From the NCBI GenBank assembly GCA_016928575.1, contig JAFGKK010000064.1, positions 1-60,040 on the forward strand: a stretch of 60,040 bases of DNA, read 5' to 3'. The notes beneath the pieces are model-generated. The model made no database searches. It saw only the letters and a list, made by a program, of their open reading frames with translations, and was not told the DNA's origin. Below, piece after piece: positions 3,052 to 37,305 of the stretch. The stretch comes from Anaerolineales bacterium (lineage in GTDB: Bacteria; Chloroflexota; Anaerolineae; Anaerolineales; RBG-16-64-43). The position numbers and the translations under genes are program-made. Each line of letters begins with the position of its first letter. Positions within the stretch are counted from its first letter, which is position 1.

Positions 3052-3124
3052 GCCGGATTGTAAAGGCGCCGCGCGCCCGCTCCGCCCCCGTCCGCCCATT
3101 CCACAACGGATCGTTTGGATCGCC

Positions 3125-3616: not shown

Positions 3617-3935
3617 ACGAGAATCGACGATCGACCACGGACCATCGGCCATCGCCCTTCTTGCCATCGTGGATTGGAGAGGCAATCAATCCCGCCGGAA
3701 AATGCGTCATGCCGGCGCGGAGATTCCCAAGAAGAGAAGCGAGGCCCGAACTATACGGCCATTGCCCGCAAGCAAGGATGGGATTCTTTTCTCCGCCGGT
3801 TGTGCTTGGCCGGTTTCTCCCAAATCGGCGGGGGAATACCCCGCCGGCGGCGCCTTCCGGACGGGTCATACTTCTATGCCCATGGAACCCTCCGCCCGGA
3901 ACCGGGCCAAGGGCGATTTCCCAACAGGAGCCATT
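3617..3935. other. Gene-free interval
   Basis: No supported gene. The stretch starts with a GATCGACCACGGACC-like run. Frames that are open here lack ribosome-binding sites and recognisable protein sequence. CAGGAG at 3925-3930 belongs to the following methyltransferase gene. Confidence 0.5.
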
Positions 3936-4646
3936 ATGAAAACCCCAATATCCAAGAAAGCGTACGACAAAATCGCCGACGCCTATGCGGCCATCACCGA
4001 TAAAAAACCCCACAACGCATACTACGACCGGCCGGCGGTGAAGTCGCTCATCGGGGATGTCGCCGGCAGGAAGATCGCCGATGTCGGCTGCGGCACGGGC
4101 GCGTACGCGCAATGGCTGGCGGACAGGGGAGCAAGGGTGACGGCCATCGACGCCAACGAGAAAATGCTGGCGCACGCCAGAAAGCGGGTCGGCGGCCGAG
4201 CGTCGTTTCATCTCGCCAACATGGAGGAACCGTTCCCATTCCTGAAGGATGGAAGCCTGGACGGCGTCTTGAGCGCCTTGGCGATCACCTACGTGCGGGA
4301 CCACAAAGCGCTTTTTTCGGAATTTCATCGGATACTGCGCAAAAAGGGGTGGCTGGTTTTTTCAACCGAGCATCCATTTTTCTCATACGGTTTTTTTAAA
4401 ATCCGGAATTATTTTAAAACCCGGCGAGTGAGTTGTTCTTGGAAAGGATTCGGAAAACGCGTCCGAATGAACAGCTATTATCACAGCCTGGGCTCGATCT
4501 GCGAGGCGCTTTATGAAAACGGCTTTCTGATCGAGCGGATTGTCGAACCCAAACCCATTCGCAAATTCAAAGAGGTCAGTCCCAAAGATTACAGGGAATT
4601 AATGAATTTTCCTTTGTTCATATGCATGAAGGCCTGGAAAACCTGA
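3936..4646 (+). CDS. Class I SAM-dependent methyltransferase
   Basis: A 236-residue methyltransferase of the UbiE/Methyltransf_11 type. It has the SAM-binding motif I IADVGCGTGAYAQWLADRG near residues 48-66, an acidic motif II (VTAIDANEKML), and FPFLKDGSLDGVLSALAI with the motif IV acidic residue. The post-motif region FSEFHRILRKKGWLVFSTEHPF is also typical. CAGGAG at 3925-3930 sets the ATG at 3936, although the frame is open upstream. The substrate cannot be inferred. It is the last + gene before a convergent 13-gene block on the other strand. Confidence 0.88.
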   Translation: MKTPISKKAYDKIADAYAAITDKKPHNAYYDRPAVKSLIGDVAGRKIADVGCGTGAYAQWLADRGARVTAIDANEKMLAHARKRVGGRASFHLANMEEPFPFLKDGSLDGVLSALAITYVRDHKALFSEFHRILRKKGWLVFSTEHPFFSYGFFKIRNYFKTRRVSCSWKGFGKRVRMNSYYHSLGSICEALYENGFLIERIVEPKPIRKFKEVSPKDYRELMNFPLFICMKAWKT

Positions 4647-4814: not shown

Positions 4815-5627
4815 TCAACCTCGGATCGCATAAAGCCCGGCGACGCCCGGAAACGAAGCCGAGCCCGTGTCGCGGAAGACCCGGTACCCCGCATTCTTTA
4901 GAATCCCACTGACTTCGTCCGCAAGTCCGGCGGAGTGCGTTTCGAACGCCATCTCCCGGATCCGCCGGTAGTCCCTGCGGGCGATCCCCTGCAGAACGGC
5001 GAGTTCATCCCCCTCGACGTCGATCTTTAGGAAATCGACGGTGCGGATCTTTTCCTCGCGGAGGATCTCCGACAGGGTTCGGACGGGGGCGAACCGCTCC
5101 TCCGAACGAAACAGGTAGGACGCCAAGTCCGGCCCAAGCTGGCTGTGGATGAAATCCACCTGGGCTTTTTTCAGCTCCGGCGCCGAGGTGGAATTGCCGG
5201 CCATGTTCGGATAAAAGGCGAACGTCCGCCGCGGTTCCGCCCGCGATCCGACGGCGCAGTTCAACAGCCGCACCCTTTCCAGCCGGTGCAGCTCGACGTT
5301 GCGCCGGAGCACCTCGAAGGTGTCGGGAATGGGCTCGACGGCGCAGACAAACGCCTTCGGATTCCGCAGCTTGGCGAACAACGCAAACATCCCGATGTTG
5401 GCCCCGACATCGAAAATGCAGGAGGCGCCCTCCAAGCTCAGGCCGTGGCGCAGGTATTCCTGTTTGATGAAAACCTCGTTGTAAATGAATTCGGTTTCCT
5501 GGATGCTGGTGTGCGTGAAGCAACGGAAGCCGTCCGGGAAGGTCACCAGCTTGAGCGGCGGCGGTTGCTCCTCGACCCGGATGACGTGGATGAAATCCGG
5601 CGAGAGAATCGGGTTTTGGGCCGTCAT
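4815..5627 (-). CDS. FkbM-family methyltransferase
   Basis: A 270-residue SAM methyltransferase with FDVGANIGMFALFAKL (motif I), CAVEPIPDTFEVLRRNV (motif II) and the FkbM hallmark FLKIDVEGDELAVLQGI. FkbM-type enzymes usually O-methylate sugars or polyketide-type hydroxyls. The ATG at 5627 overlaps the stop codon of the upstream glycosyltransferase gene in an ATGA, which indicates translational coupling; the frame is open further 5' but inside that gene. It is the last gene of the 19.2-4.8 kb run. Coupling to two glycosyltransferases suggests that it finishes the same glycosylated product (inference). Confidence 0.87.
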   Translation of the reverse strand: MTAQNPILSPDFIHVIRVEEQPPPLKLVTFPDGFRCFTHTSIQETEFIYNEVFIKQEYLRHGLSLEGASCIFDVGANIGMFALFAKLRNPKAFVCAVEPIPDTFEVLRRNVELHRLERVRLLNCAVGSRAEPRRTFAFYPNMAGNSTSAPELKKAQVDFIHSQLGPDLASYLFRSEERFAPVRTLSEILREEKIRTVDFLKIDVEGDELAVLQGIARRDYRRIREMAFETHSAGLADEVSGILKNAGYRVFRDTGSASFPGVAGLYAIRG

Positions 5628-7105
5628 GGGCGGTATTCCTCCTCGTCCACTACCCGGTCCGGTTTCTCCCCATCCCGGCCCAAAAGGGACGGGGAGGGAG
5701 CGCCGAATTCCGGATTCAGCGGGGGTTTGTGGGCGGCGCTGGCCCTCCGCAAATCCAGCGGCTTTTCGATCGGCGTCGGCACGGGATGGACGGGGGCGAC
5801 TTCCGCGGCTTCCCACAGCCGGCGCTCGATTTCATCCGCCGCCTGGCGCTGGCCTCCCTCCTTCCGCGCCAGGGCGCCCAGGGAATATGCCCGCTCGCGC
5901 ATCCGCGGATCCTCCAGCCGACGCAGCGCTTCGGCCATCCGCGGCACGGTCATCTCGTCCCGGCCGAAGGTCAGGCCGATGCTTCTATCCGCGACCAGCC
6001 GCCCCCAGGCCGCCTGCATTCCGAAGGAGGGCACGATGATCGACGGAATCCCGGCGGTGATCGCCGCGCCCGTCGTGCCGGCTCCGCCGTGATGCACCGC
6101 CGCCTTCGTGCGGGGGAGCAGCCAATCGTGCGGGAACTCGTCGGCGACCAGCACCTCCGGGGGATACTCCGCGCGGCCGTCGACCGTGTTGCGGAGCAGA
6201 ACGCCGCGGTTCCCCGTTAGCCGCAAGGTTTCGAGCACGATATCCGTGACCGCCGTCTTTTCGTGCACTCCCCAGCTTCCGAATCCGACGTAGACCGGCG
6301 GCGGTCCGGCGCGGAGAAAATCGCGGAGCCGCGGGTCGATCGGCCCCTTGTGGGGCAGAATCCACCATCCCGTCTGCACCACCCGCGCCGGCCAGTCCTC
6401 CGGCCGGGGGAGGAAATAAGCGCTCCAGGCCGCGAACGCCGGAAAGCGGGAAAGGTGCTGAGCCCAGTTGCGCGTGGCGAGCGGATCCAGCCGCAATCCG
6501 TGCGCCCTCCGCCAGGCGTTGATTTTATCGGAGAGGAACAACCCGAAGGACAGGAGCATGAAGGAGGATAAGCCGCGGTTGAAGAGCGCACCTTTATCCT
6601 GGATCCGGCCGTCGACGAAGCAATAGGCCGAGGTCGGGATGAATCCCGGATCGAAGTGCACGTTGAACAGCGGCAGGCCGCGCCCCTCGGCGACGTGGAT
6701 CGCTTCCGGCGTGGTGATAACCTTGGCCAGGATCACATCCGCCCCGCGGCTGGCTTCCCAAAACGCTTCCAACTGGGAGGGCGCGATCCGCCGCGAATAG
6801 GCCGTGCTGGTGGTGAGCATCTTCGGGAGGGATTGGCACGCGGCGAGCGTGCGCATCAGGCTTTCGGTTCCGTCTTCCCGCATCGTGTGGAATTCGATCC
6901 CGCGCTCCTCAACCAGCGCCCGGTACGGTTCCCGCGCGGCGAGCACGACCTGATGCCCGCGCCGGACCAGCTCCTCGCCCAGGGCGGCGAACGGTTGGAT
7001 GTCACCGCGCGTACCCCAGTTCAGCACGGCGAACCGGTACGAGCTTTTTCTTTTAAATGCGCGGCGGTGTCCGAACGGCCAGGGCGATGACGATTTGGGG
7101 TTCAC
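5624..7105 (-). CDS. UGT-type glycosyltransferase (sterol glucosyltransferase/MGT-like), copy 2
   Basis: A 493-residue GT-B glycosyltransferase. The N-terminal domain begins FAVLNWGTRGDIQPFAALG, the motif of sterol 3-beta-glucosyltransferases and macrolide-type GTs. The nucleotide-sugar site is VHHGGAGTTGAAITAGIPSI near residues 338-357. A polar Pro-rich tail follows the fold. It is close to the protein encoded at 7357-8820 over its whole length, so the two are tandem paralogues. UGT enzymes transfer glucose or deoxysugars from NDP-sugars to lipids or aglycones; the acceptor is unknown. Its stop codon overlaps the FkbM start codon. Confidence 0.88.
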   Translation of the reverse strand: MNPKSSSPWPFGHRRAFKRKSSYRFAVLNWGTRGDIQPFAALGEELVRRGHQVVLAAREPYRALVEERGIEFHTMREDGTESLMRTLAACQSLPKMLTTSTAYSRRIAPSQLEAFWEASRGADVILAKVITTPEAIHVAEGRGLPLFNVHFDPGFIPTSAYCFVDGRIQDKGALFNRGLSSFMLLSFGLFLSDKINAWRRAHGLRLDPLATRNWAQHLSRFPAFAAWSAYFLPRPEDWPARVVQTGWWILPHKGPIDPRLRDFLRAGPPPVYVGFGSWGVHEKTAVTDIVLETLRLTGNRGVLLRNTVDGRAEYPPEVLVADEFPHDWLLPRTKAAVHHGGAGTTGAAITAGIPSIIVPSFGMQAAWGRLVADRSIGLTFGRDEMTVPRMAEALRRLEDPRMRERAYSLGALARKEGGQRQAADEIERRLWEAAEVAPVHPVPTPIEKPLDLRRASAAHKPPLNPEFGAPSPSLLGRDGEKPDRVVDEEEYRP

Positions 7106-7356
7106 GAGTTCCTCCGCAACGGCATGGGATCACAAGCGTCGTACGACTGGGCTTAGCCGAGGATCGTTGCATCCTGCCGGAAAACTATCCGGCCCGGCCC
7201 GAAAGATTCGATCCGAAGCGGCTGCTTGCCGACGGGTTCGGACGATCGAAGGGCGCGTTCCAGCAGACTATTGAAAAAAAAAGAAACGGTTAAGCCCGCC
7301 CCGGCAAGCCCGGCGGGCAGCCCAACCACCATCAATTCCATTTTAATCACGCCCAG

Positions 7357-8820
7357 CTAGCCGTCTTCGGCGCCCTTCTTAGGTTCGGCTTCTTCGTCCA
7401 ACAAGGCCGGTTTTTCCAGCACTTCCGGGGATGGGCGGATCCCGGCGCCTCGGCCGCCGGAGGAACCGGAAGGCAGCGCCCGCTCGGGCGGCCGAACCAG
7501 ATGGATCTTGGCCTCTTCGACGGCTTCCGCAATCCGGCATTCGACTTCGTCCGCCGCCTGCTTCTCTCCCCCGTCGTTCCGCGCCAGGGCTCCCACCACC
7601 CGCGCCCGCTCCCGGATTTCCGGCCGATCGATCTCGCGCAACGCGCGCGCCAGCGTCTCCACCGATATCTCACGCCGGTTCAGGGTCGTCCCGATCTGCT
7701 TCTCCTTGACCACATGCCCCCAGCAAGCCTGACCGGTGAATGCCGGAATGATGATCGACGGTATCCCCGCCTGGATCACCGCGCCCACGGTGCCGGATCC
7801 TCCGTGGTGGACGGCCGCCTTAAGCTGCGGCAGAAGCCAATCGTGCGGCAATTCCTCCTCTACGTAAATCGAAGTTGGAAATTCCTTCCGCCCGTCCACC
7901 GTATTCCGCAGCAAGACACCGCGGTTTCCGGTTATCCGCAGGCTTTCCAGGATCACTTCCGTGACGGCCGATTTATCGTGCACTCCCCAGCTTCCGAAGC
8001 CGATGTACACCGGCGGCGGACCGGCCTTGATAAATTCGCGCAACCGCTTTCCGATGGATTCTTTCCAGGGCATCCGCAGGTATCCGGTCTGGACAAACCA
8101 TTCCGGCCAATCCGGCGGCCTCTCCAACAGGTGCGGGCTCCAGGTGATGAAGGTTGGGAACCGCCGGAAATAGCCGGGATCGCTCCACTTGGAGAAAACA
8201 TCCAGCGGCATGCGCTGCCGCAGGCGCCACCGGTTCACCTGATCCCAGATGGAATACCCCATCGGGATCAGCATAAACCGCCCCATGAACCGGTTGAATC
8301 TTTTGCCTTTATCCTCCAGCTTGTCGCCGACCAGGCAATAGCTTTCCGTGGGCAGGAAGCCCGGATCGTTGTGCCACAGGAACAGCGGCACCCCCCGGCG
8401 TTCGGCGATATGCAGGGCGGGCATGGTGGAGACCGATTTGGTCAGGACCGCGTCCGCGCCCTCGGTCGCCTCCCAGAACTTCCGGAATTGGACGGCGCTG
8501 AGGCCGCGCGAATAGGATGTGCAGAGCGCGAGCGCCGAAAGCATGGCGGTGCTGTCCGCCAGCGCCTGCATCAGCCGCTCGGTGCCGTCGTCGGGCATCG
8601 TCCAGAATTCCATCCCCTGTTCCTCGATCAGGGCGCGGTACGGCTCGCGCGCCGCGATCACCATCCGGTGGCCGCGGCGGACGAGTTCCGCGCCGAGCGC
8701 GGCGAACGGTTTGACGTCGCCGCGCGTCCCCCAGGTGAGCGCGGCGAACCGGTAGGAGCGTTTTCGCCGGAGGTTGCGCCGGTATTCGCGGGGCCAGGGC
8801 GAGGACGGGTTCGGGCTCAT
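7357..8820 (-). CDS. UGT-type glycosyltransferase, copy 1
   Basis: A 487-residue GT-B enzyme paralogous to the next gene. It has FAALTWGTRGDVKPFAALG at the acceptor-domain start and VHHGGSGTVGAVIQAGIPSI at the donor site, with the shared block PVYIGFGSWGVH before it. A charged tail of about 70 residues (Pro/Glu/Lys-rich) follows. The gene begins 40 bases after the acyltransferase-like gene, on the same strand. A 251-base gap separates it from the second copy; I see no convincing gene there. Two diverged copies suggest successive or alternative sugar transfers (inference). Confidence 0.88.
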   Translation of the reverse strand: MSPNPSSPWPREYRRNLRRKRSYRFAALTWGTRGDVKPFAALGAELVRRGHRMVIAAREPYRALIEEQGMEFWTMPDDGTERLMQALADSTAMLSALALCTSYSRGLSAVQFRKFWEATEGADAVLTKSVSTMPALHIAERRGVPLFLWHNDPGFLPTESYCLVGDKLEDKGKRFNRFMGRFMLIPMGYSIWDQVNRWRLRQRMPLDVFSKWSDPGYFRRFPTFITWSPHLLERPPDWPEWFVQTGYLRMPWKESIGKRLREFIKAGPPPVYIGFGSWGVHDKSAVTEVILESLRITGNRGVLLRNTVDGRKEFPTSIYVEEELPHDWLLPQLKAAVHHGGSGTVGAVIQAGIPSIIIPAFTGQACWGHVVKEKQIGTTLNRREISVETLARALREIDRPEIRERARVVGALARNDGGEKQAADEVECRIAEAVEEAKIHLVRPPERALPSGSSGGRGAGIRPSPEVLEKPALLDEEAEPKKGAEDG

Positions 8821-8860
8821 GCTGCCCCTCCAGGGAACGGATGCGGCGGCGGGACCGGCT

Positions 8861-10675
8861 TCACGATACGGGCGTTCCGTCCGGATGTTTGACGGCCGAG
8901 GGCTGCGGCCCTTTTTCGATCCGGATCAGCGGAGCGCCCTCGATTTCCGGAAGCAGCCGGCCGATGCGGACGATCTTGCGCAACGCTTCCTCCAACGCCG
9001 CCCAGGCCTTCTGCGCCGGAACGGGACGGGATTGCGCCGGCATGAAGGCCACGGAGACCGACTCGGGGCTGGTTTCGTAATGCAGCGAGAAGAGCCGGGT
9101 CAGCAGGCGGATTCCGATCCGCCCCACGACGGCGACATCCTCGCTCGGATGGGGAAAGGAGACAATCACGTCGATCGACGACATGTATTTCATCAGCAGG
9201 ATCATGCTCGCCGGCATCCGCCAGGGAGCGGCGAGCGCCAAATGCAGGGACATCAGATCGCTCAGGTTGAACCGCTCCCGGCCGGCGCGAATCGCCTGAT
9301 GATGGGCTTCCAGCGCCTCGCGCAGGGTTTCGACCGCCGCCCGGCCGAGGTCCGCATCGCAGGCGGGATCCACCAACCTGCTGACCGCCGGGGACCATGG
9401 GGTGGCGTCGCCCAAACCCCGGTAACGGTACTTGGCCATCGTCAGGAGCTCGACGTGCACGGGGGGCCTGCCCAGCAACTGCTCCTCGGCCATCATCATC
9501 GCGATGTTGAACACCGAATCCAGTCGCAGCCCGCGGCGGATGAGCTCCCGCCCGCCCCAGTCGCGGATCCGGAAGAGGACTCGCTCGTCGGTGAGCATAT
9601 AGCGGCAGGAGGAATCCGCCCAGCGCGCCAATCCGGCCGGGACCGAAAACGGCAGGCGCTGCACGTCCGGCCGCGGGCTTTTTTTGCGCCTGGAGGCCGA
9701 TTCCTTCAACAGCAGCGACGACCGGCGGACCTCCGAACTGAAGCGGGTCATGACGTTGCCGTCGATTCCGCAGATGTAGGAAAACACGATCGAGGCTTTG
9801 CCGTTCCCGAACACCACGATTTGCGTGCTCGCCAAATACCACCGGTTTTCCCGGTTCCGGCATTGCGCCAACCGGCAGGCTTGCTCCTCGTCGGCGGGAC
9901 GGTCGTCGAGGTCGAGGCACAAGACGAGGAAGGCATTGGCCAGGGCCTCGAGGGATTCGCGGTTGCGCGGATCCAACCGCAGCAGGGTGAACCCCGCCGC
10001 CCGCTGGGCCGGCGCGGCCGCGCTGAACGGTCCGGGCGACACGGTTTGCGGCCGGCCGCGGGCATCCGCGGCGAGCGCCTCCAGGGCAGCCCGCAGCGAC
10101 GGCACATCCGCGGGCGTTCCGATCGGAGGAAGCGCGAGCTTGTAGAAATTCCCCCCCGCGGCCACAACCGCGTAGGAATCCTCCACGGATTTGTAAATCC
10201 CCATGCAAGCCCCGCTCGGGTAATTGCAGGTGGAGAACAGGTTTCGGTATTGGCCCATCTCCATCGGCTCGCCGTGGAACGTATCCAGGGGGAATTTTGC
10301 GCCGATCAGATCCGCATAGAACGACCGGGAAGCCGCCAGCAGGCGCGCCGCCCGGTCGATCGGGTCCGGCGCCGGCTGCTCGTCGGCGAGGACCGCGGTT
10401 GCGCTGAACATGATGGCGTTCGACACCATCATCCTCGCCGGAACGTCGCGCAGGACTCTTTCGTAGTACGCGGCATCCTGCCGCAACCGATGGAGGGTCC
10501 GGGTGAACCCGGAGACGCCGAACAGGAACCGTGCGGCGGCCTGCGGCACATGCGCCATCTCGGAATATTCGCGAACGTAATTCTCCAGGGTGTCCAAGGG
10601 CGGGAGGCTGGCGGGTTTCGGGTACCCATCCAGTTGCTCGAACGACATTTGTTCGGTCCGGGAGGATCTGGGCAT
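8861..10675 (-). CDS. Choline/carnitine acyltransferase-fold protein without the catalytic His
   Basis: A 604-residue protein whose landmarks match carnitine acyltransferases in order: PLDTLENYV near residue 26, GEPMEMGQYRNLFSTCNYP (about 135-153), the SYAVVAAGGNFYKL strand, VLCLDLD, NRWY (277-280), AKYRYRG (414-420), AVETLREALEAHHQAI (447-462), and a C-terminal strand-helix pair. Where the family has its catalytic E-H, this protein reads FSYICGIDG (298-306), with Tyr300 opposite the His; the STS motif reads MSS. AAAGGAG at 10684-10690 fixes the ATG at 10675. The assignment was made by eye from known family sequences. Its role may be non-catalytic or altered. Confidence 0.62.
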   Translation of the reverse strand: MPRSSRTEQMSFEQLDGYPKPASLPPLDTLENYVREYSEMAHVPQAAARFLFGVSGFTRTLHRLRQDAAYYERVLRDVPARMMVSNAIMFSATAVLADEQPAPDPIDRAARLLAASRSFYADLIGAKFPLDTFHGEPMEMGQYRNLFSTCNYPSGACMGIYKSVEDSYAVVAAGGNFYKLALPPIGTPADVPSLRAALEALAADARGRPQTVSPGPFSAAAPAQRAAGFTLLRLDPRNRESLEALANAFLVLCLDLDDRPADEEQACRLAQCRNRENRWYLASTQIVVFGNGKASIVFSYICGIDGNVMTRFSSEVRRSSLLLKESASRRKKSPRPDVQRLPFSVPAGLARWADSSCRYMLTDERVLFRIRDWGGRELIRRGLRLDSVFNIAMMMAEEQLLGRPPVHVELLTMAKYRYRGLGDATPWSPAVSRLVDPACDADLGRAAVETLREALEAHHQAIRAGRERFNLSDLMSLHLALAAPWRMPASMILLMKYMSSIDVIVSFPHPSEDVAVVGRIGIRLLTRLFSLHYETSPESVSVAFMPAQSRPVPAQKAWAALEEALRKIVRIGRLLPEIEGAPLIRIEKGPQPSAVKHPDGTPVS

Positions 10676-10737
10676 GTGGCGGGCTCCTTTCCAGGCGATG
10701 CGGATTGGGGGGCTTTCCCCCGGCATCCCCTGGCTTC

Positions 10738-13700
10738 TTAGCCGAGGGCTTTTTCGCAAACCAGGCGGATGACCTGGAGCAGGTCGTTCAACTCGAAGGG
10801 CTTCTCCAGGATGGTCAGATTGTTCTCCTCGATGAACCGGCGGGTGACCAGGTTGGCCGTATCGCCCGTGATGAAGATAATTCGCGGGGCCAGATGCGGC
10901 ATCTCCGCCTGGATCCGGCGGTAGAAATCCATTCCGGAAAAATTGGGCATCCGGAAATCGCACAGGATCACGTCGAATGCGGATTGCGCCAGGCAGTTCA
11001 GCCCTTCCTCGCCGTTCATCGCCGTCTCCACCATATATCCGCGTCCGGACAGGGTTTTGGCCAGCACATCCTGGACGTTCGGCTCGTCGTCGATGATCAG
11101 CACCCGGGATTGTCCGGCGGCGGATTCCGCCGGCGGCCGCTCTTCCTTGGCGGACCGCTTTTCCTCGGCCGCGGAGGCGACCGGCAATTCGACGATGAAA
11201 GCCGTCCCCTTTCCCACGGTGCTCTCAGCCCAGATGTGGCCGTCGTGTTCGCCGACGATCCCGTGGCAGATGGAAAGCCCCAATCCGGTTCCGGTGCCTT
11301 CGGCCTTGGTGGTGAAGAACGGATCGAATATCCGCGTCAGGTTCTCCTCCGGGATCCCGGGGCCGGTATCTTTAAAGGAAACCCGCACCATGGGCTTCGG
11401 TTCGGCGCCGGGCAGGTAATAAATGGAAGGGCCGCACTCGGTGGTGACAGTGAGGGCCCGCCGCCCCGGAACTTGCCGCATGGCTTGGATCGCGTTTTGG
11501 ATCAAATTGATGAACACTTGGGTCAGTTGGTACAGGTCGGCGGTGATCGTCGGCAGGCCGGAGGCGAGTTTCCGTTCCACCCGGATTCCGTCGGCCTCGA
11601 GCTCGTAGGAGATCAGGTCGAGGCTGTTGCGCAGCGCCTCGTTCACCTGAACCGGCCCGCGGTGGATCGGCCGCTGGCGGGCGAAATCCAGCAGGCCGCG
11701 GACGATCTTCCCGGCGCGCAGGGCTTCGGCCACCACCTTATCCAGGTTCCCCTGGACCGACCGATCGAGCTTTTCCTGCTGAACCAACTGGGAGTAGAGC
11801 ACCACCGAGGTGAGCGGGTTGTTCAGTTCGTGGGCGATTCCCGCCGCCAGCTGGCCGATGGCAGCCAGCTTCTCCGTCTGCACCAGCCGGGCCTGCGCCT
11901 GGCGCAGGGCGTTTAATTGGATCTGCAGGTCCTCGTGCAGGGATTGGCGCTGGATGGCGGTGGCGGTCATCTCCCCGATCGCGGTCAGCAGGCGGATGTC
12001 GTGATCGCCGATCGGGCTCGAACGGCCGATCCAAACCGTTCCGATGACCTTGCCGTTGGCGATCAGCGGCGCGTGGGCGACGGCCGACAATCCGTGCGTC
12101 AATTTCAAGCCGAGCGCGTCGGATTCGGGATCGCCGTTCTTCCTCCACACCGGGTTGGCCGTCGGACCGGTATGGCCCTGTTCCTCCTCCACCGATAGCC
12201 GCAGCCCGGTGAGCTCCTCCCACTTTTGGATTCCCAACTCCACCACGCTTCCGCCGTTTTCGAAATCGCGCAGCGCGACCGCCGCGCCCTCCGCCTGCAT
12301 CAGAACCGCCAACTGGTTGACCAGGACCGAATAGATTTCCGAACGGCTTTGCGCGGCGCGCATCGCGGTGGAGATCTTCGCCAGGATCTCCAACTCCTCG
12401 TTCCGCCGCAGGGTTTCCTCCTCGGCGCGTTTGTGCTCGGTGACGTCGTTCAGCAGAAGCAGGCGCTTGCCGTGAATCCTGGTCCCCAGGAGGTCGACGA
12501 TGATCTCGCGCCCATCCCTGCTCGTCATCCGCAGGTCGTTGAAGGCCGCGTCGGCATGGTCCCGCTCCGCCAGCTCCTCGGCCGCCTGCCAGATTTCCAG
12601 CGCCCCCCGGCGCCGGCGCTCGTCGGGGAGCAGGCGGGCCCAGAAGGCGCCGCTGTCCGGAAGATCCTCCAGGCCGTACCCGAAAACCGATTGGAACCGC
12701 TCGTTAAAGAATTCCGTCCGGCCGCGCTCGTGAAAAACCGCCACCGGAACGGGAAACTGCTTGGTTAGCTGGCGGAACAACTCTTCGGATTGAGTCAGGG
12801 CTTCCACCGCCCGGCGCTGTTTCAGAATCCGGTGCAGGCCGTAGGCCACCAACTGGATGTGGGCCATATCCTGCGCGTTGTATGGGCTTTCCTTGTTGCC
12901 GACCCCCAGCACGCACACCACGTCCCGCCCGTCCAGCACCGGAACGCTGAGCAGGCGCCGGATGGGGGCGATGCTGTCGGGCATCCCCTGCAGGCATTGC
13001 CACGCCGGGCTGTTGCGGGTGATCACCGGCCGCTTCAGCCGGATGCAATCCGTCCAATTTCCCGCCCGGTCGATCGGGATCGGAAGATCCTCTTCCCCCG
13101 TCAGGTCGACCGCCAACTCCCCGACCCACGATTTCAGCACCACCGCTGTACGGTCCTCGGTAAGCAGATAAAAGAATCCGACCAGGCTGTCGGTGAACCG
13201 CACCGCTTGCCTCAGCACGTGGTCGAACAGCTCCCGCTCCGATAGCCGCGAGGAGGCTTCGTACTGGTCGAGCAGGAGGCTCCCCCATTCCACCTCCGTC
13301 AACAAACGGGCTTCGGCCTTTTTCAACCCGCTGATGTCCACCGGGGCGACGATCAGCCGCGACCAATCGAATTCGGCGCCGCGGGCGAGGAAGACCCGCC
13401 GCCGGATGGCGATCCCCTCCCCGTCGAAGGTCCTTATTTCCAATTCGGATTCGTGCTTCCGGCGGCCCTCGGCCAGGGCAATCAATTCTTCCCGAAGCAC
13501 ATTGCGCCAATTCTTTTCCAGCGGGAGGGGGGGATTCTTCAGGAAGGCTTCCTTCTTTTCGTACTGGAAGAGTTCCAAGGCCGCCGGATTCGCATCTCGA
13601 ACCCGGACCAGGGAAAGGCAGGCATGAACCTCCTCCGGGTGGCTTTCCAAATAGGCCCGCCAGTCGGCGGCGGCGCCGGAGGCGCGCAGGGAGGCCAGGC

Positions 13701-13809
13701 GCTTCCTCACCAGGGAGCAATCCTCCACCCACAGCGGGATGGGGATGTCCGGAAGCTTCTCCCGGGGCCGATTCTTCTTCACCTGTCCGCGCCGTACGCT
13801 TTTTGGCAC
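10738..13809 (-). CDS. Hybrid sensor histidine kinase (PAS-GAF-PAS-GAF-HisKA-HATPase-REC)
   Basis: A 1023-residue cytoplasmic hybrid kinase without membrane segments. Approximate order: PAS-like (60-160), GAF (185-330), PAS (345-460), GAF (480-625), HisKA with GIAHELNNPLTSV and phosphoacceptor His660, HATPase with N-box Asn772, DTGPGIP (814-820), FDPFF and GTGLGL (840-845), then a Pro/Glu-rich linker and a receiver domain (902-1020) with Asp951 and Lys1003. All catalytic residues are present. The architecture implies soluble ligand or redox sensing through PAS/GAF and phosphotransfer to its own or the neighbouring receivers. It sits between the receiver-DHp gene (13 bases away) and the acyltransferase-like gene. 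Confidence 0.93.
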   Translation of the reverse strand: MPKSVRRGQVKKNRPREKLPDIPIPLWVEDCSLVRKRLASLRASGAAADWRAYLESHPEEVHACLSLVRVRDANPAALELFQYEKKEAFLKNPPLPLEKNWRNVLREELIALAEGRRKHESELEIRTFDGEGIAIRRRVFLARGAEFDWSRLIVAPVDISGLKKAEARLLTEVEWGSLLLDQYEASSRLSERELFDHVLRQAVRFTDSLVGFFYLLTEDRTAVVLKSWVGELAVDLTGEEDLPIPIDRAGNWTDCIRLKRPVITRNSPAWQCLQGMPDSIAPIRRLLSVPVLDGRDVVCVLGVGNKESPYNAQDMAHIQLVAYGLHRILKQRRAVEALTQSEELFRQLTKQFPVPVAVFHERGRTEFFNERFQSVFGYGLEDLPDSGAFWARLLPDERRRRGALEIWQAAEELAERDHADAAFNDLRMTSRDGREIIVDLLGTRIHGKRLLLLNDVTEHKRAEEETLRRNEELEILAKISTAMRAAQSRSEIYSVLVNQLAVLMQAEGAAVALRDFENGGSVVELGIQKWEELTGLRLSVEEEQGHTGPTANPVWRKNGDPESDALGLKLTHGLSAVAHAPLIANGKVIGTVWIGRSSPIGDHDIRLLTAIGEMTATAIQRQSLHEDLQIQLNALRQAQARLVQTEKLAAIGQLAAGIAHELNNPLTSVVLYSQLVQQEKLDRSVQGNLDKVVAEALRAGKIVRGLLDFARQRPIHRGPVQVNEALRNSLDLISYELEADGIRVERKLASGLPTITADLYQLTQVFINLIQNAIQAMRQVPGRRALTVTTECGPSIYYLPGAEPKPMVRVSFKDTGPGIPEENLTRIFDPFFTTKAEGTGTGLGLSICHGIVGEHDGHIWAESTVGKGTAFIVELPVASAAEEKRSAKEERPPAESAAGQSRVLIIDDEPNVQDVLAKTLSGRGYMVETAMNGEEGLNCLAQSAFDVILCDFRMPNFSGMDFYRRIQAEMPHLAPRIIFITGDTANLVTRRFIEENNLTILEKPFELNDLLQVIRLVCEKALG

Positions 13810-13822
13810 CGCGGCCTTCCTT

Positions 13823-14578
13823 TCAGGTGTGCGGCTGAAGCGCGTTCCATCCCTCCGGTTCGGCGAATTCCCCCTGGCGGCTCAGCTCCTCGCGCAAGGC
13901 CGATTCGATGTCCATCATCTTTGTCGTATCGGTGTAGTCGCACAGTCGGACGCCGGTCGAATCCAACAGCACTTTCATCACCGACTGGATGCTCAGGGCG
14001 CTTTTGCGGCTGGAGCGCAGGATTTCCATCAGGTAGGGATCCGGTGCCTTTTCGGCCAGCGATTCCGAGAGCAGGGTCAGGCCGCCCTTGAGCGTGGTCA
14101 GGTGGTTGTTAAGATAATGGGAAAGCGTGACCACCGTGATGCGGACGATCTCGGCGGTCATCAGGTTCCGGTTGAGCTCCTCCTGAGCCCGGGCCAGGCG
14201 CAATTCGTTCAGCGCCCGGTCGATCGAGGCCAGGATCTCGTCGTGGGTGAAGGGCTTGACGAGGTAATCCCGCACGCCCAGGCGGAACGCTTCGATGGCG
14301 ACGTGTTCGGAGCCGTAGGCGGTCATCAGGATCGCCGGGGCGGTGGACCGGCGCCGGCGCAGTTCGGCGAGCATCTCCAGCCCCGACATGCGCGGCATGT
14401 TCATATCGAGCAGGATCAGGTCCGGCCGGAAGCGTTCGGCCATTTCCAAACCCGCCTGCCCGTCCCCGGCCGAGGCGACTCGAAAGCCCATCGCCGGAAG
14501 GATGTCCTCTTCCAGCAGGATCCGGATGTCGCGGCTGTCGTCGACGATCAGGATCGATTCACCGGCCACGGCCGTCAT
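13823..14578 (-). CDS. Receiver protein with a C-terminal DHp-like helical domain
   Basis: A 251-residue protein. The receiver domain (residues 8-122) has the DD pair, Asp58 and Lys108. The rest is helical and contains VVTLSHYLNNHLTTLKGGL around His154, which resembles the dimerisation/phosphoacceptor helix of histidine kinases (H-x-L/V-N-N). No ATPase domain follows. It may act as a phosphotransfer or dimerisation partner of the hybrid kinase encoded 13 bases downstream. Whether His154 is phosphorylated cannot be told from sequence. A hairpin repeat lies directly upstream of its start. Confidence 0.85.
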   Translation of the reverse strand: MTAVAGESILIVDDSRDIRILLEEDILPAMGFRVASAGDGQAGLEMAERFRPDLILLDMNMPRMSGLEMLAELRRRRSTAPAILMTAYGSEHVAIEAFRLGVRDYLVKPFTHDEILASIDRALNELRLARAQEELNRNLMTAEIVRITVVTLSHYLNNHLTTLKGGLTLLSESLAEKAPDPYLMEILRSSRKSALSIQSVMKVLLDSTGVRLCDYTDTTKMMDIESALREELSRQGEFAEPEGWNALQPHT

Positions 14579-14591
14579 CCTCGCTCATCTC

Positions 14592-14635
14592 GCCCCTCCC
14601 CCTTCTCCTGACGGTTGTCATGAGCAGGGGGAGGG
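14592..14635. repeat. Pyrimidine/purine hairpin repeat inside the signalling gene run
   Basis: Inverted repeat with outer arms CCCCTCCCCCT and AGGGGGAGGGG and an inner stem CTCCTGAC/GTCATGAG (one mismatch) around GGTT. It occupies the 126-base gap between the genes at 14705-15175 and 13823-14578. It is one member of the family also seen at 33508, 43683, 47202, 48615, 50010, 50124, 51005 and 58826. Confidence 0.8.
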
Positions 14636-14704
14636 GTCGGGGCAGGGATTAAGGGCGGCGGTGAAGCCCTTTGCGATCGGATGGAGGAGGGCATCCCCGG
14701 CGCT

Positions 14705-15175
14705 CTACAGTAAATCGAAGGTCACGGTTTCGTTGCCGGCGGCCGGATCGACTTCCACCGACCAGCGGGCCTTCTGCCCCATGCGCGCCAATACGGCCAC
14801 GCCGGCGGACATGAACGGATGCGAAAACAGCTTCTGCACTCCCTTCTTCTGCAGGAGTGCAAACTCCGGCACGCTCACCGCCTTCGAAAACGAAGCGCGG
14901 ATCTGCTTGTCGGCCGCCTCGACCTTGAAATCGGCCGCGTAGCCGATGTCTTCGACGAACAGCTTTCCCAGCTGGCGGACGGCTTCGTCGGGCTTGCCGG
15001 CGTCGATCTTCCTGTCAAGGACCGTTTCGATCATTTCCAAAATCTGCGATCCGACCTGCGGCGCGAGCGAGGTTGCGGATTCCTCCACCATGCCCCAGAT
15101 GCCCAATGTCATCCCGGTGACGGTCATGCCCCACAGTCGGGCGCGGTTCTCCATTTTCTGCGGATCGGTGGCCAT
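14705..15175 (-). CDS. Unrecognised protein of the Roadblock/GTPase gene run
   Basis: A 156-residue soluble alpha/beta protein I do not recognise. It opens MATDPQKMENRARLWGM, has a helical middle (VGSQILEMIETVLDRKID) and a region KLFVEDIGYAADFKVEAAD that could carry a ligand-binding fold. It lies 30 bases after a Roadblock gene, with AAGGAG upstream, so it is very likely co-expressed with it. It has no Roadblock-type strand pattern that I can see. A structure prediction is needed before a family can be named. Confidence 0.75.
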   Translation of the reverse strand: MATDPQKMENRARLWGMTVTGMTLGIWGMVEESATSLAPQVGSQILEMIETVLDRKIDAGKPDEAVRQLGKLFVEDIGYAADFKVEAADKQIRASFSKAVSVPEFALLQKKGVQKLFSHPFMSAGVAVLARMGQKARWSVEVDPAAGNETVTFDLL

Positions 15176-15205
15176 GTTTTTCTCCTTTGGATGGATTCGG
15201 CGGGA

Positions 15206-15577
15206 TCAGCGCGGAATCGCTTCCCACAACTGGGGCGCGTATTCGTTCATCATCAGCCGCACGCTCCCGAGAATGGCGTTGCGGGTGACCGCCACGTTGA
15301 AGAAGTACGACCCGTCCCCCAGGAAACGGGTAAGCATGTAGCTTCGGTCCGTGGTCACCAGGTTGTCGTCGACCACCCCCATGCCCACTTTGGTGGTGAC
15401 GTTGCCCGCCAGTTTCATCACCATCGCGACGCGCGCGCTGGCTTCGGAGGAATTAAACGCCGGATCCATCGATCCCCCGGCGATCGAAAGCCCGTCCATG
15501 CCGACCACGTCGGCGGAGATGAAATCGGCTCCCAGTTCGCCGCGGAATTGCTGCAATAATTGGTCTAATTTAGCCAT
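15206..15577 (-). CDS. Roadblock/LC7-domain protein
   Basis: A 123-residue single-domain Roadblock/LC7 protein: LDQLLQQFRGELGADFISADVVGMDGLSIAG (helix 1 and the first strands), a long helix with MVMKLAGNV, then the strands LVTTDRSYMLTRFLGDGSYFFNVAV and a C-terminal helix. Roadblock proteins dimerise and regulate Ras-like MglA GTPases. AAAGGAG before the ATG at 15577 fixes the start, although the frame is open upstream. It is close to the C-terminal domain of the protein encoded 25 bases upstream. Confidence 0.88.
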   Translation of the reverse strand: MAKLDQLLQQFRGELGADFISADVVGMDGLSIAGGSMDPAFNSSEASARVAMVMKLAGNVTTKVGMGVVDDNLVTTDRSYMLTRFLGDGSYFFNVAVTRNAILGSVRLMMNEYAPQLWEAIPR

Positions 15578-15602
15578 GGGGATTCTCCTTTGCTCCGCCG
15601 GC

Positions 15603-16640
15603 TTATCCGCTCGGGAAGAGCGTCGCAATCCGGTTGGCGTACATCTTGGTGATCAGACGCATATTGCCGAGGTTTCCGGCGCGGCGGTCCACCGTCAGAC
15701 CGAGATAGTATTTGCGGCCGGGGAGAAAGCGCATCAGGACGTAGGCGAAATCCGTCGTCGTCAGGTTGTCTTCGATCTCCCCAAGGTTGATCTTGCTGGA
15801 AGTCGTTTCCACCAATTTGAGCAGCATGGTCATTTGGGCCGAGATGACTTCCGCCATCTCCATTGGAGATTTGGCGCCGGCCATGCTCGGCGGCAGTTTC
15901 CCCGGCCCGCCGGGACCCATGCCCGGAGGCGGTCCGCCCGGTCCACCGGGACCCATTCCGGGTGGCGGTCCGCCCGGTCCGCCGGGTCCCATACCCGGAG
16001 GAAATGTGCCGGGTTTCATGCCGGGTGGCGGTCCACCCGGTCCGCCCGGCCCGCCAGGGCCCATGCCGGGTGGCGGTCCGCCCGGCCCCATAGAACGCAC
16101 ATCGAATTTGGGCATCGGCGGATGCGCGGCGATCGGGATGCCGTCGGTGCCGATTAAGGCGCTTCCGAGATATCCCGTGACTTCGGCGCCCATTTCACCC
16201 AGGATTTGCTCGAAATTGACCATCGGTTTTACCTCCGTAGGAACCAGTGGGTCGGATGGAGCGGCGGACGTCGCCGGCATGGAAGAGCCCGCCGGGAATG
16301 ACCGGTCGTCCGGTTTTAATTGCGGTTTCTGACCGGATTCATCCAGCCGCCGCGCACCTTCGAGAAGCAGACTCGACCATTCGCGTTGAATGGATGTGGC
16401 TGGCGGCTCAATGCCGTTCTCCAGATTAAACACACCCTCTTCCCATTGCAGCAGCCGGTAGACCACCTCCTCGCCGGTTTCGCTTCCGGATTGCGCGTGG
16501 ACCAGTTTTCCGCCCTTGAAAAACAGCGATGCCTTGTGGCCCGCGCGCTGGATCGACAGTTCCGCGGTTTTGCGGTCCTGGCAAGTATGCTGGATCAGAT
16601 CGGCCAGCGCCATGTCCCGAAGGTTGCCCTGGATGCCCAT
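15603..16640 (-). CDS. DUF4388-Roadblock protein with a Pro/Gly/Met-rich insert
   Basis: A 345-residue protein. Residues 1-80 match the DUF4388 pattern (GNLRDMALADLIQ, LFFKGGKLVHAQSG, GEEVVYRLLQWEEGVF). Residues 81-140 are a linker. A Roadblock domain starts at about 141 (VNFEQILGEMGAEVTGYLG) but is interrupted after its second strand by repeats of GPGGPPPGM (184-254); it resumes at PMEMAEVISAQMTMLLKLV and ends with helix LITKMYANRIATLF. GGAAAGG six bases before the ATG at 16640 sets the start; an ATG at 16646 would overlap the preceding stop. DUF4388 proteins commonly accompany MglA/Roadblock and two-component genes. Confidence 0.87.
   Translation of the reverse strand: MGIQGNLRDMALADLIQHTCQDRKTAELSIQRAGHKASLFFKGGKLVHAQSGSETGEEVVYRLLQWEEGVFNLENGIEPPATSIQREWSSLLLEGARRLDESGQKPQLKPDDRSFPAGSSMPATSAAPSDPLVPTEVKPMVNFEQILGEMGAEVTGYLGSALIGTDGIPIAAHPPMPKFDVRSMGPGGPPPGMGPGGPGGPGGPPPGMKPGTFPPGMGPGGPGGPPPGMGPGGPGGPPPGMGPGGPGKLPPSMAGAKSPMEMAEVISAQMTMLLKLVETTSSKINLGEIEDNLTTTDFAYVLMRFLPGRKYYLGLTVDRRAGNLGNMRLITKMYANRIATLFPSG
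15879..16091 (-). repeat. DNA repeats encoding the GPGGPPPGM insert
   Basis: Tandem, slightly varied units coding for Gly/Pro/Met-rich repeats inside the DUF4388-Roadblock gene. The repeats stay in frame and differ at third positions, which fits a selected coding repeat. They are not a CRISPR array: there are no unique spacers. Confidence 0.85.
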
Positions 16641-16642
16641 AA

Positions 16643-17038
16643 TCATCCTTTCCAAGAGGTCGACCAAATTCGGCGGACTTCCTGCATCGCGAGATTGGTC
16701 GCCCGGCGGTAGGCGCGGTCGCGGCCGGGAACCAGCACCGCAAGGATCAGCCGATATTCGTCCATGTCGAACGGCCGGCAGACCAGCCGCAGGCCGGCTG
16801 AATCGTAGAAGCTGATTTCGTCCGGCTCGGTCATCCCGAGCTGCCGACCGACCAGAGCCGCGGCTTTTTGCATATAGGCGACCGCCGCCGATTGACGCTC
16901 CGGATCGCGGTCCGCCTCGGCGGCGAACGCGATCGTCAATCCTTGCGAATCGGAAAGCACCGAAATCGGAAATCCCCCCTCCTGGTTCATGCGTTGGAGC
17001 AGGCCGTTCATCTGTTCCGAACCGGAAAGCTGCGCCAT
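16643..17038 (-). CDS. Roadblock/LC7-domain protein
   Basis: A 131-residue Roadblock-type protein: N-terminal helix MNGLLQRMNQEGGF, strands PISVLSDSQGLTIAFAAEA, helix AVAYMQKAAALVGRQLG, strands EISFYDSAGLRLVCRPF and RLILAVLVPG, and a C-terminal helix. GGAGG lies before the ATG at 17038. It follows the GTPase gene by 17 bases, and its stop codon abuts the next start. This placement suggests that it is a partner or regulator of that GTPase. Confidence 0.82.
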   Translation of the reverse strand: MAQLSGSEQMNGLLQRMNQEGGFPISVLSDSQGLTIAFAAEADRDPERQSAAVAYMQKAAALVGRQLGMTEPDEISFYDSAGLRLVCRPFDMDEYRLILAVLVPGRDRAYRRATNLAMQEVRRIWSTSWKG

Positions 17039-17055
17039 CTCCCTCCTCTCCTCCC

Positions 17056-17652
17056 TCAAACGCAGGCCGGCTGGGCCTGCTGCATGCGGGTGAGCACGCC
17101 GCGGGTGATCAGTTTGAGCGTGTCGAGCACGCCGTCGCCGCGGATCGCGGCGGCCGGAACGGTGGGGACGTTGTAGAGGTTCAGCAGGTTTTTCATCGTC
17201 TCGGGGTCGACGGCGTAGCGCAGGTCCTGTTTGTTGCACTGCAGGACGACCGGAAGCCGCTCGAGGGCCAAGCCGTGCGATGCCAGGTGGGTGTTCATGT
17301 CGCCCCAGGAAAGCTTGTTGGCGTGCATGGATTCCGGCGACGAATCGGCGACGAACACCACCCCGTCCGCTCCGCGCAACACCAGCTTGCGGCTGGCCTC
17401 GTAATAACTTTGGCCCGGGACCGTGTAGAGGTGGATCTTCGGAGTGAGGTTGTTGATCCGCCCCAATTCGAGCTCGAGGAAATCGAAGAACAGCGTGCGG
17501 TCCTCGTGCGTTTTCAGGGAGATGAGGTCGCTGCGGTGGGTCGGATCGACCCGGGCGTGGATCTGCTCGAGGTTGGTGGTCTTCCCGCTCAGCGCCGGCC
17601 CGTAGTAGACGATCTTCAGGTTCAATTCGCGAAGCTGCCAGTTGATCTGCAT
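17056..17652 (-). CDS. MglA-like small Ras-family GTPase
   Basis: A 198-residue GTPase of the MglA type. It has the P-loop GPALSGKTT (residues 18-26), switch region RSDLISLKTHEDRTLFFDFL, G3 TVPGQ (77-81) in place of the DxxG of Ras, and G4 NKQD (140-143). The Thr for Asp at G3 is usual for MglA proteins. MglA GTPases work with Roadblock (MglB-like) proteins as a switch in polarity, motility and related signalling. The ATG at 17652 was chosen because homology begins there. It sits between two Roadblock genes, two bases after the first. Confidence 0.93.
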   Translation of the reverse strand: MQINWQLRELNLKIVYYGPALSGKTTNLEQIHARVDPTHRSDLISLKTHEDRTLFFDFLELELGRINNLTPKIHLYTVPGQSYYEASRKLVLRGADGVVFVADSSPESMHANKLSWGDMNTHLASHGLALERLPVVLQCNKQDLRYAVDPETMKNLLNLYNVPTVPAAAIRGDGVLDTLKLITRGVLTRMQQAQPACV

Positions 17653-17654
17653 GG

Positions 17655-18176
17655 CTATCCACTCCAGATCGAATCCAGCCGGTCCCCGATCTGCGCCGGA
17701 AGGCGGTCTTCGTGCAATCCGAGTTCCAGGCTGCCCAGTTCGTCCGGCCGGGCGGAGGCGATGTCGGCCAGCTGGCGGCAGGTCTCCAGGATCAGGATCC
17801 GCGCCCAGCCCAGAGGAACCTGGTGATCGACGCGGACGAACAGGATCATGTAGGGCCCGGCCTCGGAGAGGAAAATGGTCGACTGCCGCCCCTCGCGGAG
17901 AATCATTTGGTACGATTGGTATTGGCCCGTCTGGCGGGCGATCTCCTGGCTGGCCGCCAGGTCGCCGGCCAGCAGGGCTCCCAGGGCCGAGAGATTGGTC
18001 TCGCCCTTTTCCCCCTCGCAGGCGATCGGCTGGCCGCTGATCCCGGACAGCAGGATGAATTGCGCCGGGCATTTCTGCGCCAGTTCTTCAAGGACCTGGC
18101 GGATTGCCTGGTCATGCCCCGGATACAGGATGACGTCGACCGGGAAATCCGCCGAATTCCGTGCTTGTGCGTTCAT
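17655..18176 (-). CDS. Roadblock/LC7-domain protein
   Basis: A 173-residue protein. The core is Roadblock-like: helix AIRQVLEELAQKCPAQ, strands FILLSGISGQPIACEG, helix LSALGALLAGDLAASQEIARQTG, strands YQMILREGRQSTIFLSEAGPYMILFVRV, and a C-terminal helix with ILILETCRQLADI. GGAAGG precedes the ATG at 18176. It is followed two bases later by the MglA-like GTPase gene, the usual position for an MglB-type partner. Its C-terminal 30 residues are acidic and of no recognised type. Confidence 0.82.
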   Translation of the reverse strand: MNAQARNSADFPVDVILYPGHDQAIRQVLEELAQKCPAQFILLSGISGQPIACEGEKGETNLSALGALLAGDLAASQEIARQTGQYQSYQMILREGRQSTIFLSEAGPYMILFVRVDHQVPLGWARILILETCRQLADIASARPDELGSLELGLHEDRLPAQIGDRLDSIWSG

Positions 18177-18205
18177 AATGCGCCTTCCGTTTCCCGCCGC
18201 CCGGA

Positions 18206-19198
18206 TCACGCGTCGGGAATGATGCCATCCCGGACCGCTTCTTCGTACGTCAGCAGCGCCGGATGGTCGGGCTTGCCGCCCGAAGGCCGGGTCTTATCCG
18301 CCGTGGAAGCCCGGCCGGCCGGCCCGGCCTCCACGAAAATCTTCTGCAATTCGCCGTACAGCGCCTGCTCCATATCCTGCCCGATGGTTTTTTCCGTCGT
18401 GCGCATGTCCGCCGTGCGGAACTTCTCGCGCAGGTCCACGACCGCCTTCTGGGCGCTGTACCAGACCGATCCCAGACGGGTGCTGAAGGGGCCGCGGTCG
18501 ATGACGATCACCAGCAGAAAAGAGCCGACGTTGACGGCGTACAGATCCTGCTGTTTGCCTTCGCGGAAGGCGAGGTTGACTCCGCCGTCGCTCGGATCCA
18601 CCGCCTTGCCGGCTTCGCCGAGGGTGGTCATGCTTCCGCCCAACAGCGAGGCGAGCTGAGTCAGGTCGAAGTTTTCCACGTTGCCGGCCCGGGCCAAGCA
18701 GCGCCCTTCGCTGTCGGCCAGCAGGATGCAGCGCGCGGCGACGTCGCCCTGCAGTTGGCAGAGGACGCGGTCGACCTCGCGGTAATCCTTCTCCGAAAGG
18801 ACGAGGATCCCGGAAGATTCAGGCAGCGCGTCGCCCGCCGCCTCGCGGACGATCTGGCGGAAGGCATCGATCTCCAGCGGCTTGGGCAGGTAGCGGTAAG
18901 CCTGCAGGCGCGAAGCCTCGGATTCCACCGCGGCACTGCCGTAGGCCGTCATCAGGATCACCCGGGTTTTCGGATGGACCGCATGGATCTTCTCCAACAA
19001 CTCCAAGCCGTTCATCCCGGCCATTTTGTAATCCGTCACGACCAAGTCGTACTTGCGCTGGATGAGCATGTCCATCGCCTCCTCGCCGCCGGAGGCGGTG
19101 GAGACTCGGAACTGGTCGCCCAGCTTGCGCAGGCTGTTCTTCAGGACGGACAGAACGCCGTCTTCGTCGTCGACAATGAGGACCCAAAAATCGGCCAT
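18206..19198 (-). CDS. Receiver-Roadblock fusion protein
   Basis: A 330-residue protein. Residues 1-122 are a receiver domain with the acidic pocket DDED, Asp56 and Lys106. Residues 140-260 have the Roadblock pattern (VDRVLCQLQGDVAARCILLADSEGRCLA, LASLLGGSMTTLGEAG, YAVNVGSFLLVIVID). The C-terminal tail is polar. Such a fusion would link phosphorylation directly to a GTPase-regulating fold (inference). It is the first gene of the 13-gene run, with CGGAG five bases before the ATG. Confidence 0.88.
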   Translation of the reverse strand: MADFWVLIVDDEDGVLSVLKNSLRKLGDQFRVSTASGGEEAMDMLIQRKYDLVVTDYKMAGMNGLELLEKIHAVHPKTRVILMTAYGSAAVESEASRLQAYRYLPKPLEIDAFRQIVREAAGDALPESSGILVLSEKDYREVDRVLCQLQGDVAARCILLADSEGRCLARAGNVENFDLTQLASLLGGSMTTLGEAGKAVDPSDGGVNLAFREGKQQDLYAVNVGSFLLVIVIDRGPFSTRLGSVWYSAQKAVVDLREKFRTADMRTTEKTIGQDMEQALYGELQKIFVEAGPAGRASTADKTRPSGGKPDHPALLTYEEAVRDGIIPDA

Positions 19199-23978: not shown

Positions 23979-24251
23979 TGCATTCTCTCCTGTTTTTGTT
24001 GGGTACGGATAACGTTCCGACGCTTCGATCAATTTTTTTCTACGGTCGCACCTCCTTTCCATATCCGCGATCTCCCGACGGAGCCCGAAAACCGAATCGC
24101 GGCGCACATCCGACCCGTCCTCCTTCCGAACCGGCGGCCGGAAGGGCGACAATCCGACTCGGCGTTCACGCGCCGATCCGCAAGGGTTCCGGTCGCCGGA
24201 TCGCCGGCGGACGGGTCAAAGAAGTTCTAACCACCGTTTTTATTTTTATAG

Positions 24252-37246: not shown

Positions 37247-37276
37247 TTGCCTTCTTCGCCGCGATCCATGTAGAAT
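37247..37276 (+). promoter_or_regulatory. Promoter of the caspase-like gene
   Basis: TTGCCT (37247-37252), an 18-base spacer and TAGAAT (37271-37276) precede the ATG at 37306 by 30 bases, with GGGAGG in between. A sigma-70-like promoter is likely. Confidence 0.45.
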
Positions 37277-37305
37277 TCACAGAACGCCGGAGAGGGAGGT
37301 TTTTC

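Follow-up and report, generated by a model that had tools for sequence, protein, structure and literature searches.

An MglA GTPase signalling cluster of the Anaerolineales with a predicted Bet3/V4R-fold component, probably followed by inserted enzyme genes

The closest described counterparts of the gene cluster reported here are the MglA/MglB/MglC/RomR-RomX module of Myxococcus xanthus, the Group 1 and Group 5 MglA loci with PATAN genes (PMC4316618), the actinobacterial conservons (AGPS; PMC13343842), and the TRAPP Rab exchange factor together with the GTPase, Roadblock and TRAPPC3 proteins of Asgard archaea (PMC10933270). According to PMC4316618, Group 1 MglA proteins are marked by a P-loop of the form GxxxxGK[T/S], an Arg beside the G2 threonine, and the TVPGQ and NKxD motifs, and PATAN genes lie near some MglA genes of Groups 1 and 5, both of which occur in Chloroflexi among others. 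The C-terminal helix region of MglB is described as acting on MglA (PMC6785124), and the GTPase, Roadblock and TRAPPC3 genes of the Asgard archaeon MK-D1 are reportedly not arranged in operons as a rule (PMC10933270). The cluster considered here is found on a contig from an Anaerolineales bacterium (JAFGKK010000064.1), whose complete length of 60,040 bases makes up the window and which belongs to a draft genome of 137 contigs that is 96.9% complete. The gene content of the window, with a MalT-like LuxR protein, DUF4388 and GAF-bearing kinases, points to Chloroflexota and probably to Anaerolineae. Judged from sequence, its nine minus-strand genes (10738-19198) probably form an MglA GTPase signalling module conserved in the class. 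Encoded together are a Group 1 MglA, MglB, further Roadblock proteins, a DUF4388-Roadblock protein, a receiver-Roadblock protein, a receiver protein with a segment resembling the dimerization and histidine phosphotransfer domain (REC-DHp), a hybrid kinase, and a protein predicted to adopt the Bet3/TRAPPC3-V4R-H-NOX fold. This predicted fold is the new element of the locus, and the protein that bears it is the main interest.

The nine genes, g01 to g09 in order of transcription, head a series of 13 minus-strand genes (4815-19198) that an initial annotation had read as one run. Its coordinates and gaps stand, and the starts are sensible, with Shine-Dalgarno-like or purine-rich ribosome sites before most of them. 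Spacing is 2-62 bases or a 4-base overlap throughout, save for gaps of 126 (14579-14704) and 251 bases (7106-7356); Rfam and tRNA scans gave no match. The inventory also survives: one MglA (g03), five Roadblock domains (the C-terminal halves of g01 and g05, and g02, g04 and g06), two stand-alone receivers and a GAF-PAS-GAF hybrid kinase recovered by domain matches, and enzyme-like proteins of the PF00755, GT1 (two) and FkbM families. Absent from that annotation were the fold of the 156-residue g07 product and the probable membership of a plus-strand methyltransferase in the enzyme block. What had been taken for a single run is two units placed end to end, the nine signalling genes and this enzyme block.

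At the centre of the first unit, g03 (17056-17652) is by its sequence MglA, matching the PDB entry 5ymx (E 2e-56) and, in phmmer searches, the MglA proteins of M. xanthus (E 2e-56) and Thermus thermophilus (E 2e-55). It carries GPALSGKT, DRT with the arginine, TVPGQ and NKQD, in agreement with the Group 1 motif rules of PMC4316618. Conservons likewise encode a kinase, a Roadblock protein and an MglA-family GTPase together, but their GTPases belong to Group 2 (GTPGQ) and are accompanied by CvnC, whereas the proteins of this cluster include a TVPGQ-bearing GTPase and gave no CvnC-type Pfam match; membership among the conservons was rejected on these motifs. Immediately upstream of g03, g02 (17655-18176, with an alternative GTG start at 18209) encodes an MglB homologue with a helix-like C-terminal tail. 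A profile of nine relatives (A5) aligned with MglB (6izw_B) at E 9e-32 over positions 9-171 of 172, and thereby covers the full-length Roadblock and the C-terminal helix region alike; the relatives keep the tail motif.

Three further Roadblock genes follow MglA. The product of g04 (16643-17038), which adjoins MglA across the class, is of Roadblock type, and its family profile reached 9jue_D at E 8e-5. That of g05 (15603-16640) joins DUF4388 (PATAN-like; PF14332, 5e-23) to a Roadblock domain through a Gly/Pro-rich linker, and that of g06 (15206-15577) is MglC-like and 53-68% alike in relatives; when g06 was combined with the C-terminal half of g05 in one profile (A4), MglC was the closest match (7ct3, E 5e-5). 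DUF4388 of Pfam corresponds to the PATAN domain. No papers linking the domain to Roadblock or MglA were found under the DUF4388 name, the literature discussing it as PATAN. The cluster shares the proximity of MglA and Roadblock genes to PATAN with the Group 1 and Group 5 loci, while the passages of PMC4316618 consulted mention neither a Bet3-fold gene nor a fusion of receiver and Roadblock nor a REC-DHp protein.

Two-component proteins stand at either end of the module. The product of g01 (18206-19198; 85% in the same-genus genome G001) consists of a receiver (PF00072, 2e-25), an MglB-like Roadblock domain, its C-terminal half aligning with g02-type proteins, and a conserved C-terminal tail (LLTYEEAVRDGIIP). 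This tail, roughly L[ST]YEEA[IV]xxG[IL]IP, follows an unconserved linker in the window (18206-18260) and in loci L012, L013, L015, L016, L077-L079, L081, L082, L085 and L087, and is possibly a docking motif. The g08 protein (13823-14578; 82% in G001) pairs a receiver (PF00072, 3.5e-30) with a DHp-like segment (PF00512, 0.087 at 151-202) whose H-box, LSHYLNNHLT, is intact and present in G001 too; it has no ATPase domain. The last gene, g09 (10738-13809; 73% in G001), encodes a hybrid kinase of GAF-PAS-GAF-HisKA-HATPase-receiver architecture. Since a kinase, a receiver, a histidine-bearing segment and a second receiver are all encoded, the gene content suggests a phosphorelay. In the mechanism considered likeliest here, the hybrid kinase would sense a cytoplasmic signal through its GAF and PAS domains and pass phosphate to the REC-DHp protein and on to the receiver-Roadblock protein; the latter, MglB and the remaining Roadblock proteins would jointly set the GTP/GDP state of MglA. 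The g07 protein would either provide a second input, by binding an acyl chain or another hydrophobic ligand, or serve as a scaffold, and MglA-GTP would mark a site in the cell for some effector.

These components might suggest the canonical polarity module that serves type IV pilus motility in Myxococcus, as Group 1 MglA, the C-terminal helix of MglB, an MglC-like Roadblock protein and a receiver-containing, RomR-like regulator are common to both. The window differs in gathering its genes into one cluster, in fusing receiver and Roadblock, and in adding DUF4388, the Bet3-fold protein and the hybrid kinase. Moreover, with 6 candidates per genome scored, PilT was not detected in the window's own genome and was present in only 1 of the 39 MglA-bearing genomes of the class against 19 of 298 overall, a co-occurrence not above chance. 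Pilus motility is thus an unlikely role for the module, and type IV pili are not its obvious output.

For the 156-residue product of g07 (14705-15175), Pfam and NCBIfam gave no match and PDB sequences none that convinced, and neither Pfam TRAPP nor Pfam V4R matched any of 14 family members. Its fold was predicted from two AlphaFold2 models. The first, of the window's protein built with 13 relatives, had a predicted local distance difference test (pLDDT) score of 85.5; its top 15 Foldseek matches were all Bet3/TRAPPC3 or other TRAPP chains (TRAPPC3 6aq3, E 5e-5; query template modelling scores 0.53-0.68), and VIA-align superposed it on Thorarchaeota TRAPPC3 (7yh3) with Z 12.3 over 141 residues at 3.2 A. 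The second, of a relative from locus L078 (pLDDT 91.2), retrieved Bet3 first (1wc8, E 3e-5) and then the V4R domain of PoxR, with H-NOX among the VIA-align rows. TRAPPC3 or Bet3 accordingly heads the matches of both models, at E 3e-5 to 5e-5 and Z 10-12. Bet3 and V4R are considered related (PMC2253512). Because Bet3, V4R and H-NOX have one common fold, only the fold is predicted here and no subfamily is claimed; assignment as Bet3 or V4R at the level of sequence was rejected, the Pfam and PDB sequence searches having given no proof. Two conserved glycine pairs characterize the Bet3 family, the first (GxxxG) in helix 2 and the second in helix 5 (PMC2253512). By eye, the first (G21/G25) is kept by the window's protein and by 90% or more of the relatives, whereas the second is not, small residues (Ala) taking the place of the glycines around 123-131.

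The distribution of g07 ties it to MglA. Among 298 genomes of the class, 17 strong g07 genes were found in 13 genomes; 14 of these lie within 4 kb of an independently found MglA, two stand beside DUF4388-Roadblock genes on short contigs, and one is alone. MglA is borne by 12 of the 13 genomes with g07 against 39 of 298 overall (hypergeometric p 6e-11, a figure that overstates independence as the genomes are related). In a sample of 400 genomes of the phylum, g07 occurred in two only, both of the same class. A weaker sister family, distantly related to g07 (L123, L125, L126, L131, L132, L134 and L136), with the pattern FWDERGKGARF ... GCLH ... PFTC and three conserved cysteines, has no MglA nearby.

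This distribution bears on whether g07 is instead a V4R-type small-molecule sensor that stands in a signalling cluster by chance and has no TRAPP-like role, for its adjacency to MglA and Roadblock genes is far above chance. Both structure searches also place Bet3/TRAPPC3 chains first, and a Pfam V4R match is wanting. On the other side, V4R, PoxR and MopR structures match the g07-family models too (Z 8-9), and most relatives have three cysteines (C99, C119 and C149), lost in the window and G001 copies, that recall the zinc sites described for V4R and Thor-TRAPPC3 (PMC10933270). The sensor explanation is thus given slightly less than an even chance. A bolder proposal is a bacterial TRAPP-like assembly, in which g07 and Roadblock dimers would form a membrane- or ligand-controlled platform for nucleotide exchange on the Ras-like GTPase. 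A small GTPase, Roadblock/longin-type regulators and a Bet3/TRAPPC3 fold are found in TRAPP and Asgard systems as well, and the folds predicted for this cluster resemble those of the TRAPP exchange factor; the cluster differs in having a bacterial MglA in place of Rab and Roadblock in place of longin, and in encoding the components together. Such an assembly, proposed from fold and neighbourhood, is speculative and rather improbable. Our searches found no earlier description of a bacterial cluster that combines Roadblock regulators and a Bet3-fold protein with a Ras-like GTPase, and when open-access papers were searched for V4R with MglB or Roadblock, the Asgard paper (PMC10933270) was the only one among those listed to contain V4R.

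MglA relatives were sought in 61 near relatives and in the 298 class genomes, and 28 class neighbourhoods were read. All 28 have a Roadblock (g04) or DUF4388 (g05) gene at most about 1.5 kb downstream of MglA, and 11 show the complete MglB-MglA-Roadblock-DUF4388 order (g02 to g05). Near two MglA clusters, at L088:15418-16338 (minus strand) and L089:4341-5249 (plus strand), lie genes for fusions of about 305 residues that join a receiver (PF00072) to a Ras/Rab-type GTPase (PF00071); by their domains, these are possibly single-chain small GTPases controlled by phosphorylation.

In G001, contig C114 carries g01, g02, g03, g08 and g09 in that order (73-91% identity), and the kinase is followed by yfcE without any of the four minus-strand enzyme genes of the window. 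DNA similarity between the two genomes ends at 3585, inside the YfcE phosphodiesterase gene (3117-3616, plus strand, start approximate; TIGR00040, 2e-20; 73% DNA match), which forms the left flank of the insertion, and restarts at 10766, inside the kinase gene; in G001 only about 220 bases separate the two. An enzyme block of about 7 kb is therefore present in the window and absent from G001. As both flanks are neighbours in G001, an assembly chimera was rejected. Likewise, none of the 28 class neighbourhoods contains glycosyltransferase, FkbM or acyltransferase relatives of the window's.

The block (4815-10675 together with the plus-strand methyltransferase) begins with g10 (8861-10675, its start at 10675 set by a ribosome site), which encodes a choline/carnitine acyltransferase-like protein (PF00755, 1e-33; 117 bits against a cut-off of 22.3). 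The active-site His of the HxxxD motif is absent, FSYICGIDG standing opposite CEHSPFDG of choline acetyltransferase, with no His in FGNGKASIVFSYICGIDG; by this loss of the catalytic histidine, the protein would be either inactive or of different chemistry. PF00755 was found in 1 of 400 phylum genomes, namely the window's own, and no relative of g10 turned up in G001, in the other sampled phylum genomes, or in genome-contig and plasmid searches. A literature search for bacterial carnitine-acyltransferase-like enzymes in secondary metabolism found mostly fungal polyketide work. Two GT1 glycosyltransferases follow, g11 (7357-8820; UGT/EryCIII-like, PF06722 1.6e-11, PF00201 1.1e-6) and g12 (5624-7105; PF06722 1.7e-16), which are 54-55% alike, the next relative among 151 genomes reaching 34%; a search for further copies of the pair found only relatives at 26-30%, in Herpetosiphonaceae and Saccharopolyspora. 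The FkbM methyltransferase g13 (4815-5627; TIGR01444, 1.6e-29; 103 bits against a cut-off of 37.7) closes the minus-strand run, and a class I methyltransferase (3690-4646, plus strand, start approximate; PF08241, 8.5e-23), to which nothing in the DNA of the G001 locus corresponds, is probably part of the inserted block. As a natural guess from these families, the product would be a lipid or small hydrophobic aglycone that is glycosylated and methylated. The block is probably a horizontally gained insertion downstream of the switch and separate from it, gain being likelier than loss in view of the single PF00755 genome and the distance of the next relative of the GT1 pair.

The initial annotation had proposed that phosphorylation and GTPase state may control how a modified glycolipid, or a molecule resembling a polyketide, is made from one regulated operon. 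The common strand, the short distance from kinase to acyltransferase gene (62 bases, with a good ribosome site), and similar GC content at third codon positions across most of the 13 genes are in keeping with a single operon. The absence of the enzymes from the same-genus locus and from the 28 class neighbourhoods argues against it, as do terminator-like sites in the 251-base gap between the glycosyltransferase genes (7302-7283 and 7203-7188 on the transcribed minus strand, weak given 29 found in the region against 17.3 expected) and the lack of polyketide synthase or non-ribosomal peptide synthetase genes among those scanned in the window. The annotation had itself named, as an outcome that would refute it, enzyme and signalling homologues that close relatives have only in unlinked positions, and in G001 and the 28 class neighbourhoods the signalling genes stand without the enzymes. 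Accordingly, its MglA, Roadblock and two-component part is conserved, the control of glycolipid or polyketide-like synthesis is unsupported, and a single regulated operon is very unlikely. The first enzyme genes are possibly co-transcribed with the kinase, as a recent arrangement in a single species.

The reading favoured here, with rather more confidence than doubt, is a class-conserved MglA module with a putative phosphorelay and a predicted Bet3/V4R-fold input, to which the downstream enzyme block probably does not belong. Several observations count against it. The g04-g07 block of G001 lies on a separate contig (C50; L107:6233-8267), with its order kept but only 34-55% identical to the window's and far more diverged than g01-g03, so that even within the genus the block need not be linked to g01-g03. 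In trees, the window and C50 copies are sisters for g04 (97/91) and g07 (100/99), and weakly for g05, although the long g07 branch makes the g07 tree uncertain; as the copies are sisters yet so dissimilar, the block has apparently changed its place in one lineage and evolves rapidly. In addition, g08 and g09 are without firm orthologues outside the genus, the fold of g07 is assigned from structure and not from sequence matches, with its Bet3, V4R and H-NOX branches inseparable, and that the enzymes were gained, not lost, is probable but short of proof.

Elsewhere in the window, genes for extracellular solute-binding proteins flank the region (1567-3051, plus strand; 22635-24152, minus strand), the latter succeeded by genes for two permeases and an AraC regulator, which lie immediately upstream of g01. 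A Peptidase_C14 (caspase-domain) gene (37198-38121, plus strand) adjoins an 845-residue open reading frame (34465-37002, minus strand) without a Pfam match at E 1e-5, and a 335-residue protein (32072-33079, minus strand) has a HisKA domain and no further Pfam match at that threshold.

Together, these results correct the view of the locus, in that its striking enzyme neighbours are a probable recent insertion and stand outside the switch. The genes of MK-D1 are reportedly not in operons as a rule, which makes a bacterial cluster useful: here, side-by-side genes in a bacterial class name the candidate partners of a Ras-like GTPase, which can be purified and tested. Should the TRAPP-like assembly prove true, the partnership of GTPase, roadblock/longin and Bet3 proteins known from eukaryotic vesicle traffic would have a bacterial example, to which phosphorelay control has been added.

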